NCBI GenBank assembly: GCA_002728715.1
Contig: PBVQ01000026.1
Span: 1 to 35,145, forward strand
DNA length: 35,145 nucleotides
Direction: 5' to 3'
Origin: Dehalococcoidia bacterium
GTDB lineage: Bacteria > Chloroflexota > Dehalococcoidia > Lucifugimonadales > Lucifugimonadaceae
Both the position numbers and the translations under genes were made by a program. Positions within the stretch are counted from its first letter, which is position 1. Every line of letters begins with the position of its first letter. Shown piece after piece: positions 12,873-15,105 of this stretch. Below the pieces are notes generated by a model that was not told the DNA's origin, ran no database searches, and was given only the letters and a program-made list of their open reading frames with translations.

Positions 12873-14099
12873 TTAGTTTGCTCCATCCTCTATGGAAGAT
12901 TGCTCACCGTGCTCAGAAAGGTCAAGTCCTTGATCTTCACTTGAGTCAGATACTCTTAGACCCAATACTGGAATTTTATCAAGAATATACAAAATCCCAT
13001 AAGTAAGTACAAAAGAGTAAGCCAATGTACCCAGCGCAGTATAAATTTGAATCCATACTTGATCAAATTCACCTTGTACCACTCCCTTAACTCCTGCTAT
13101 ACTTTCTATTGCAAAAATACCTGTAGCGATACATCCCCATAATCCTCCAACTCCATGAACTGCAAAAACATCCAAGGCATCATCTAGTTTAGTTTTATGA
13201 ATTAATTCCACAGCATAATAACATATCAAACCAGCTCCAAAACCAATTGCTAAGGCTCCAATTGGATTTACAGCACCTGCTGCAGGGGTAATAGCAACAA
13301 GACCAGCGACGGCTCCAGTCGCAGTACCAACGGCACTAATTTTTCCAGAACTAATCATACTGAGGATTCCCCAAGTAGTTGCAGCTGTACCTGCAGCTAT
13401 TTGAGTCACAAGCATAGCATTTACAGCATAGTCATCTGATGCCAAAGCAGAACCTCCATTAAATCCAAACCAACCAAACCATAGTATTGATGCCCCTAAA
13501 ACAATGTATGGGACATTATTTGGTTGTAAACCTGGAAGTTTCCTTCTACCAACAAGTAGAGCAGCTGCAACTGCTGCGGCTCCAGCATTTATATGTATTA
13601 CAGTTCCACCTGCAAAATCGAGTGCTCCTGCTCCATCAGCACCGATCCATCCTCCACCCCAAACCCAATGAGCAACTGGGGCATATACTATAGTTATCCA
13701 AATAACAGTGAATACTAAATATGTAGAAAATTTGAATCTTTCAACAAATGCTCCTGTAATCAATGCTGGAGTTATTATTGCAAACATCATTTGGAATAAC
13801 ACATCATATAAAGGACTTATAGCATCTCCTTCTTGAGAGAACATTTCAACTCCACTAAGGCCTAATAAAGAAAAATCTCCAATGAACCCATCAATTAATT
13901 CACCATTTCCATAAGCAAGACTATACCCCCACAAGGTCCAAACAATTGAAACAACACCAATTGTTATAAAACTTAACATTATTGTGTTTACTAAGCTTTT
14001 TGCCCTTACTAAACCTCCATAAAAAAAAGCTAAACCAGGTGTCATAAAAAATACAAGTGCAGATGCAGTAAGCATCCATGCGGTATGACCAGAATCCAT
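12873..14099 (-). CDS. amt: ammonium transporter, Amt family
   Basis: A 408-residue polytopic inner-membrane ammonium channel with about eleven hydrophobic helices. The conserved pore histidines are in GGTVIHINAG (about 168) and VFAVHGVGGLWG (about 318). The family signature DFAGGTVIHINAGAAAVAAA is intact, and the external Phe-gate region (AFVERFKFSTY) is present. No cleavable signal peptide is evident; the N-terminus goes directly into the first helix, a common bacterial variant. AGGAGAA lies five bases before the ATG. No glnK/PII gene is beside it here. The upstream region carries a regular 11-base repeat array that suggests control by an OmpR/PhoB-type regulator; a terminator follows the gene. 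Confidence 0.97.
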   Translation of the reverse strand: MDSGHTAWMLTASALVFFMTPGLAFFYGGLVRAKSLVNTIMLSFITIGVVSIVWTLWGYSLAYGNGELIDGFIGDFSLLGLSGVEMFSQEGDAISPLYDVLFQMMFAIITPALITGAFVERFKFSTYLVFTVIWITIVYAPVAHWVWGGGWIGADGAGALDFAGGTVIHINAGAAAVAAALLVGRRKLPGLQPNNVPYIVLGASILWFGWFGFNGGSALASDDYAVNAMLVTQIAAGTAATTWGILSMISSGKISAVGTATGAVAGLVAITPAAGAVNPIGALAIGFGAGLICYYAVELIHKTKLDDALDVFAVHGVGGLWGCIATGIFAIESIAGVKGVVQGEFDQVWIQIYTALGTLAYSFVLTYGILYILDKIPVLGLRVSDSSEDQGLDLSEHGEQSSIEDGAN

Positions 14100-14125
14100 A
14101 ATTTTCTCCTATAAATATATTTTTA

Positions 14126-14154
14126 GTTATAGAATTAAATGTAAATTGCAAATA
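14126..14154 (-). promoter_or_regulatory. candidate amt core promoter
   Basis: Minus-strand TATAAC (14131-14126) is a fair -10. The position expected for its -35 (14154-14149) reads TATTTG, which is poor, and lies at the very end of the GAAACA repeat array. A weak -35 with adjoining activator sites is what is seen at activator-dependent promoters. Judged by eye. Confidence 0.35.
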
Positions 14155-14213
14155 TTTCTTTTATGTTTCCTACTTGTTTCTTTTGTGTTTCATATATGTT
14201 TCTAATATGTTTC
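14153..14213. promoter_or_regulatory. tandem 11-base repeat array (TGTTTC / GAAACA), probable operator
   Basis: Plus-strand TGTTTC occurs at 14164, 14175, 14186, 14197 and 14208, each start exactly 11 bases after the last. A sixth copy with one change, TATTTC, sits in phase at 14153. Read toward amt the unit is GAAACA plus five variable, AT-rich bases. One DNA turn per repeat places all copies on the same helix face, the arrangement used by tandem OmpR/PhoB-family dimers. GlnR, the actinobacterial nitrogen regulator of that family, uses GTnAC and GAAAC half-sites with the same 11-base register, and amt is a known GlnR target. The regulator here is not identified. The array also lies 35 bases upstream of the divergent amidohydrolase start, so both genes may be controlled. 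Confidence 0.8.
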
Positions 14214-14247: not shown

Positions 14248-15105
14248 ATGTATGAAGTTATGATTATAGATTCACATTGCCATGCATGGAAAATTTGGCC
14301 ATATTTACCTGAAGTACCAGACCCTGAGAACCATGGATCAATAGAATTACTCTTAAATAAAATTACTCTAAATAAAGTCAATTTAGCAACAATAGTTTGT
14401 GCGGAAATATTTAATAATTTTGATAACAATGTTTACGTATTTGACAAAATTAAAAATTATCCAGATAAATTTTTACAATTAGCAGATATCGATTCTATGT
14501 GGTCAAAAACTTATCATACAAAAGGTGCAACTAATAGGTTAGAAAATGCATTAAAGAAATATAATATTCTTGGATTTACTCATTATGTTGCAGAAGAGGA
14601 TGATGCATCGTGGTTTAATTCTTCAGAAGGATTAGATTTTTTTAAATTTGCAAATGATAATAAATTAATTGCATCCTTAGCCATTAAACCAAATCACCAA
14701 AAAGAACTAAGAAAATTGGCAGAGAGATTCCCAAATCTTAATATTCTATGTCATCACATGTCTGGTTTAACTGTAAAAAACTCTAAAATAAAAAAAAATT
14801 TAATTGAGGTCAAAGAAAGTTCAAAATTAGATAATATACACTTAAAATTCTCTGGATTCCATTATGTAGACAAGTTTCATTGGAAATATCCTTATGATGA
14901 TTCAAGATGGATTTTTGAGGAGTGCTATAATTCCTTTAATAAAAAAATGTGCTGGGGTTCAGATTTCCCTGTAGTTCAAGAATCAATGACATACAAGCAA
15001 ACTATTGAAGCTTTGAGAAAAAACTGTAATTTTATTGATGTAAACGATATGAATTATATTTTAGGAGAAACATTGAATAATCTGATCAAGATGAGGTTTT
15101 CTTAG
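14248..15105 (+). CDS. amidohydrolase family protein (COG3618-type, TIM-barrel metal hydrolase)
   Basis: A 285-residue metal-dependent hydrolase of the amidohydrolase-2 group, relatives of which open lactones (L-fuconolactonase) or decarboxylate aromatic acids. It has the N-terminal IDSHCHAW with the HxH metal pair, CHHMSG near 170 and the late GSDFPV with the catalytic/metal Asp near 245. The exact reaction is unknown. The ATG at 14260 (giving MIIDSHCHAW) matches the family start better than the ATG at 14248; neither has a good ribosome site. It is divergent from amt and shares its repeat-bearing promoter region. Its last 20 bases overlap the 3' end of the convergent metallopeptidase gene. 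Confidence 0.85.
   Translation: MYEVMIIDSHCHAWKIWPYLPEVPDPENHGSIELLLNKITLNKVNLATIVCAEIFNNFDNNVYVFDKIKNYPDKFLQLADIDSMWSKTYHTKGATNRLENALKKYNILGFTHYVAEEDDASWFNSSEGLDFFKFANDNKLIASLAIKPNHQKELRKLAERFPNLNILCHHMSGLTVKNSKIKKNLIEVKESSKLDNIHLKFSGFHYVDKFHWKYPYDDSRWIFEECYNSFNKKMCWGSDFPVVQESMTYKQTIEALRKNCNFIDVNDMNYILGETLNNLIKMRFS

Follow-up and report, generated by a model that had tools for sequence, protein, structure and literature searches.

A six-box array upstream of an ammonium transporter gene as a probable GlnR-type operator in a Dehalococcoidia bacterium

What is the role of a row of short, evenly spaced units in front of an ammonium transporter gene (amt) in a Dehalococcoidia genome, and which protein would bind it? 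The stretch of DNA analyzed here, 35,145 nt in length and referred to below as the window, carries this row between amt and a divergent amidohydrolase gene. A sequence-only reading had proposed that a nitrogen- or phosphate-responsive regulator of the OmpR family controls amt from these units, perhaps with unusually many identical half-sites, and perhaps the amidohydrolase gene as well. We considered this proposal in the context of the whole genome, its relatives, and the known actinobacterial GlnR operator.

The array and the promoter of amt

On the forward strand of the window, TGTTTC starts at 14164, 14175, 14186, 14197 and 14208, and TATTTC at 14153. Read on the amt strand, these are five GAAAC boxes and a sixth unit, GAAAT (14154-14158), with low coordinates at 14209, 14198, 14187, 14176, 14165 and 14154 and a period of exactly 11 bp. 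The locus contains the following features.

14209..14213, minus strand: box 1, most promoter-distal, GAAAC; conserved in G000-G003
14198..14202, minus strand: box 2, GAAAC; GTAAC in the sister species G002
14187..14191, minus strand: box 3, GAAAC
14176..14180, minus strand: box 4, GAAAC
14165..14169, minus strand: box 5, GAAAC
14154..14158, minus strand: box 6, promoter-proximal, GAAAT
14138..14143, minus strand: putative -10 element TACATT, 10 bp after box 6; TANNNT as in related operators, position conserved
14106..14110, minus strand: Shine-Dalgarno-like AGGAG of amt, read directly
12873..14099, minus strand: amt, ammonium transporter of 408 aa (TIGR00836, 446 bits, cut-off 343), the presumed controlled gene
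14248..15105, plus strand: divergent amidohydrolase (PF04909), a neighbor for which control by the array is unsupported

The five perfect units and the one-mismatch sixth, in exact 11-base register, had been noticed from the letters alone, and both the coordinates and a shuffling test bear this out. Dinucleotide shuffling of the window, repeated 300 times, gave a longest period-11 run of GAAAC of one unit in 286 cases and two in the other 14, against the five observed; no 5-mers of the window other than GAAAC and those that overlap or complement it reach a run of at least three. A scan of the 1.35-Mb genome for box triples, suggested by the sequence-only reading, found three perfect boxes in tandem before this amt gene (amt1) and at only one other place, C29:11386, about 60 bp upstream of a second amt gene (amt2). 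GAAAT is also the last box of the amt3, PII and G028 amt arrays; the sixth unit is a conserved promoter-proximal box, and not a sign of array decay. The candidate -10, earlier placed about 21 bases from the array, is revised here to TACATT, which agrees with the layout seen across the family and lies exactly 10 bp beyond the end of box 6.

The layout at other loci and in other genomes

Within the same genome, boxes separated by 6 bp and followed by n10-TANNNT are found upstream of amt1, amt3 and the single PII gene. The amt3 operator reads TTAAT-GAAAC-GATAC-GAAAT-n10-TAATAT and that of PII reads TTAAT-n6-GAAAC-n6-TTAAT-n6-GAAAT-n10-TAAAAT, a layout conserved in G002 and G003, with one spacer longer by 1 base in G001. 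At amt2 the spacing is atypical: three perfect boxes are present, and the likely -10 (TATATT/TAAATT) lies 5 bp further off than usual. Two-mismatch matches in this genome are mostly chance, their number being close to the control, and we retained just two of them, at amt3 and PII, for their position and conservation. The six-box amt1 array is present in all four genomes of the genus, and the exact three-box-n10-TANNNT pattern occurs in each of them at amt1 and amt3 only (8 sites, with 0 control matches). The PII gene is split across two contigs (L135:1501-1731 and L136:1480-1635), and the tyrosine context usual for the T-loop is missing from it. The gene that follows amt2 (L013:5756-7414, contig C29) is malate synthase A-like.

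The same picture extends to more distant relatives. We scanned 60 related genomes for the four-box pattern with n10-TANNNT, allowing two mismatches and using a reversed control, and recovered 51 distinct sites compared with 2 in the control. Thirty-eight of the 51 are sense-strand sites no more than 400 bp upstream of an amt gene. By family search of the downstream genes, the remaining 13 include sites before glnA (G057, G056, G041, G055), glnII (G043), a NasC-like assimilatory nitrate reductase (G030) and glnB (G015, G040). In G024 the order, read by eye, is a short DNA-binding protein and then glnB; a site on G040:C10 lies upstream of another OmpR-type gene, one in G022 is near a short OmpR-type gene, and those in G007 and G019 look like chance. 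When amt upstream regions were scored directly, 53 of 76 reached at least 14/18 for the four-box form (reversed control 0), with a bimodal score distribution, and sense-strand GAAAC triplets of at least 12/15 were found in 43 of the 76 at period 11, versus 0-2 at periods 8-10 and 12-14. Some genomes that have both amt and GlnR show no recognizable site. Three perfect GAAACA units at 11 bp also occur in G017 and G026 (L018 and L019, near 1501-1528), with a peptide-type ABC permease gene on one side and a divergent lipoprotein-like binding-protein gene on the other.

Conservation, which the sequence-only reading had made a touchstone, holds for the array in four of four genus genomes and for a four-box form at the amt genes of the wider family and order; within the genome the motif is scarce and linked to amt and PII rather than common and unlinked to nitrogen genes. 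The point about many identical half-sites holds for this genome, but six boxes are not unique, since six contiguous boxes with n10-TANNNT precede amt in other Dehalococcoidia (for example G282, G196, G141 and G230), family f63 of this class among them.

This arrangement closely resembles an operator known from another phylum. The published GlnR operator, a1-b1-a2-b2, has the form gTnAc-n6-GaAAc-n6-GtnAC-n6-GAAAc (PMC10704036). It shares with the arrays described here the 5-bp boxes, the 6-bp spacers, the 11-bp period, the head-to-tail order on the coding strand, the location upstream of nitrogen genes, and the n10-TANNNT after the last box. As a positive control, the same pattern was run on 24 genomes of actinobacteria, accessed by way of their GlnR loci, and gave 18 matches (0 in the control), most of them upstream of glnA as judged by translated start. 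At amt1, at amt3 and in relatives, the distance from last box to -10 is that of actinobacterial glnA promoters; PII fits this n10-TANNNT spacing in G000, G002 and G003, and amt2 does not. The genes downstream are nitrogen-assimilation genes (amt, glnA, glnII, glnB and nitrate reductase), and the boxes are of the GTnAC/GAAAC kind with 6-bp spacers and at least two in tandem.

There are differences as well. The amt1 array consists of six contiguous boxes, in place of the usual four of actinobacterial GlnR, and all six are of the b type (GAAAC/T), so that the alternation of a (GTnAC) and b (GAAAC) boxes, itself a consensus form from which published sites vary, is absent there; alternating boxes do occur in this genome at PII and amt3, as well as at box 2 of G002 and in most relatives. 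The targets in this family are amt and PII, not glnRA. Here glnR-glnA is a conserved gene pair at which we found no operator, scores staying at background (at most 12/18), whereas other families have an operator upstream of glnA.

A parallel in box number is the amtB promoter of Streptomyces coelicolor, which, as summarized in PMC10704036, has three GlnR boxes, all three of them needed, each box being an a-b pair, and hence six half-sites (Wang et al., 2012). Both promoters place six half-sites upstream of an ammonium transporter; in S. coelicolor, according to the same account, a PhoP-protected stretch separates the first and second box, whereas the half-sites here are contiguous. As described in that review, the solved GlnR complex contains four GlnR molecules head to tail beside RNA polymerase. 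Promoters of the PhoB/PhoP type (e.g. 9JI5, with six PhoP molecules) likewise have tandem OmpR-family sites in place of the -35 and several protomers per promoter, but differ in their boxes and target genes.

Candidate regulators

The genome encodes four proteins with an OmpR DNA-binding domain. Two are beside histidine kinases on contig C2, and the third is a 93-aa stand-alone domain encoded after amt3. The fourth, on contig C11 (glnR, L014:1471-2163), is the kind of orphan that had been anticipated: it lies directly upstream of glnA, its other neighbor is the divergent rpsL, and no histidine kinase gene adjoins it.

Several lines of evidence identify the C11 protein as GlnR-type. Its best PDB sequence matches are structures whose entry titles name GlnR, at 103 bits versus 80 for the next protein, and it keeps the recognition helix FGGTRTVDVH common to SAR202 and actinobacterial GlnR. 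In a tree of the DNA-binding domain, the protein and its relatives group with actinobacterial GlnR, apart from RegX3, MtrA, PrrA, BaeR, RpaA and PhoP, with support of 88/94, which is moderate given about 100 residues and long branches. Homologues at E <=1e-15 occur in 55 of 60 relatives, some of them being other OmpR proteins, and glnA directly follows glnR in most of the family. A structure search returned the OmpR-family fold without separating GlnR from other OmpR proteins; the assignment rests on sequence, tree, gene neighborhood and operator, and not on that search.

The receiver of this protein is degenerate. A Pfam search of the C11 protein gave no Response_reg match, although the domain is predicted to fold as a receiver (mean pLDDT 89, in a model of the 88%-identical protein from MAG SAT182), and Asn or other residues take the position of the Asp in the phosphorylation pocket. 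In actinobacterial GlnR, Asp-50 and Arg-52 hold the dimer (PMC10704036). They belong to a VDAR motif (VDGR in one protein) that is absent from the genus of the window and from its family. In other words, the protein resembles actinobacterial GlnR (8HIG, 8HML, 8HIH) in its OmpR-family fold, orphan gene, near-identical recognition helix and degenerate receiver, and differs from it in lacking the receiver Asp and Arg and in being encoded beside glnA. We therefore call it GlnR-type rather than a strict actinobacterial GlnR, and its control must differ in part from that of the actinobacterial protein.

The most serious competitors for the array are the other OmpR-type proteins. One possibility is that a kinase-linked protein of contig C2, PhoB/RegX3-like or BaeR-like, binds the boxes and makes amt respond to phosphate or envelope signals. 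Both C2 proteins belong to the OmpR family, which binds direct repeats spaced 11 bp. Their closest PDB relatives, however, are RegX3/MtrA and BaeR, not GlnR; the identified target genes are all nitrogen genes or OmpR-type regulators; and the operator is also found in actinobacteria, in which it is known to belong to GlnR. We consider this possibility quite unlikely. The C11 candidate, for its part, does not look like a PhoB/RegX3-type regulator, having no kinase neighbor and no phosphate gene among its identified targets. The nitrogen half of the earlier proposal is supported, in GlnR form, by the rarity of the array, its link to amt and PII, its conservation and the orphan beside glnA; the phosphate half finds no support.

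It is about equally improbable that the 93-aa protein is the main binder, or that it competes with GlnR and so damps activation. Its gene follows amt3 in the same orientation (L017:1453-1734, contig C18; also L315, L316, L314), similar proteins without a receiver are encoded near an operator in G022 and, in G015 and G024, between operator and glnB, and in the tree the protein lies on the same side as GlnR. Against such a role, it lacks the FGGTRTVDVH recognition-helix sequence, sits on a very long branch, and has no receiver for dimer formation.

Proposed mechanism and its implications

Taken together, we favor a model in which the array is the operator of the GlnR-type C11 protein, bound head to tail and turning on ammonium uptake under nitrogen limitation, and we put the probability of this reading at roughly 0.84. 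Copies of the regulator would occupy one face of the DNA, one per 11-bp box, and by analogy with the solved GlnR complex the array could hold up to six protomers, the last of them adjoining TACATT at the place where a -35 normally lies. We suggest that the bound regulators would bring in RNA polymerase and switch amt on when nitrogen runs low, and that amt2, amt3 and PII may be under the same regulator. The binding of the C11 protein to the array is inferred; activation rather than repression, and low nitrogen as the signal, are suggested by the targets and by the example of actinobacterial GlnR. A more elaborate version, in which three GlnR dimers occupy the six identical boxes and form a steep, cooperative switch that dispenses with the Asp/Arg dimer lock, and the receiver-less 93-aa protein competes for these boxes as a brake, is doubtful.

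Two further readings concern the array itself. It could serve mainly the divergent amidohydrolase gene, or repress both genes; the array does sit between the two, and the pair is kept in G001, G002, G003 and G028. The boxes, however, run toward amt at a fixed distance from the amt -10, and amt2, amt3 and PII carry the layout with no amidohydrolase neighbor, so we regard this reading as highly unlikely; the earlier suggestion that the amidohydrolase is also controlled finds no support. A neutral tandem repeat, as the AT-richness and the period of 11 or 22 reported by Tandem Repeats Finder might suggest, is scarcely credible, because the spacers have changed more than the boxes (4 of 36 versus 1 of 30 columns vary among the four amt1 arrays of the genus, small counts from closely related species) and unlinked amt loci and another phylum share the layout.

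A literature search for GlnR control in Chloroflexota found no description. The GlnR-type system itself is known; what is new is its presence in Chloroflexota and its homogeneous six-box form, and a switch for nitrogen starvation known from actinobacteria would seem to operate in a second phylum as well. An operator, promoter spacing and regulator shared by Actinomycetota and Chloroflexota would imply either that the switch is ancient, older than the actinobacterial model, or that it passed from one phylum to the other. For uncultured, abundant ocean bacteria, the model offers a concrete regulator-operator prediction that concerns a single protein and an 80-bp piece of DNA. Nature supplies promoters with three, four and six boxes, and these, together with a regulator that lacks the dimer-locking Asp and Arg, provide a way to ask what the extra sites do.
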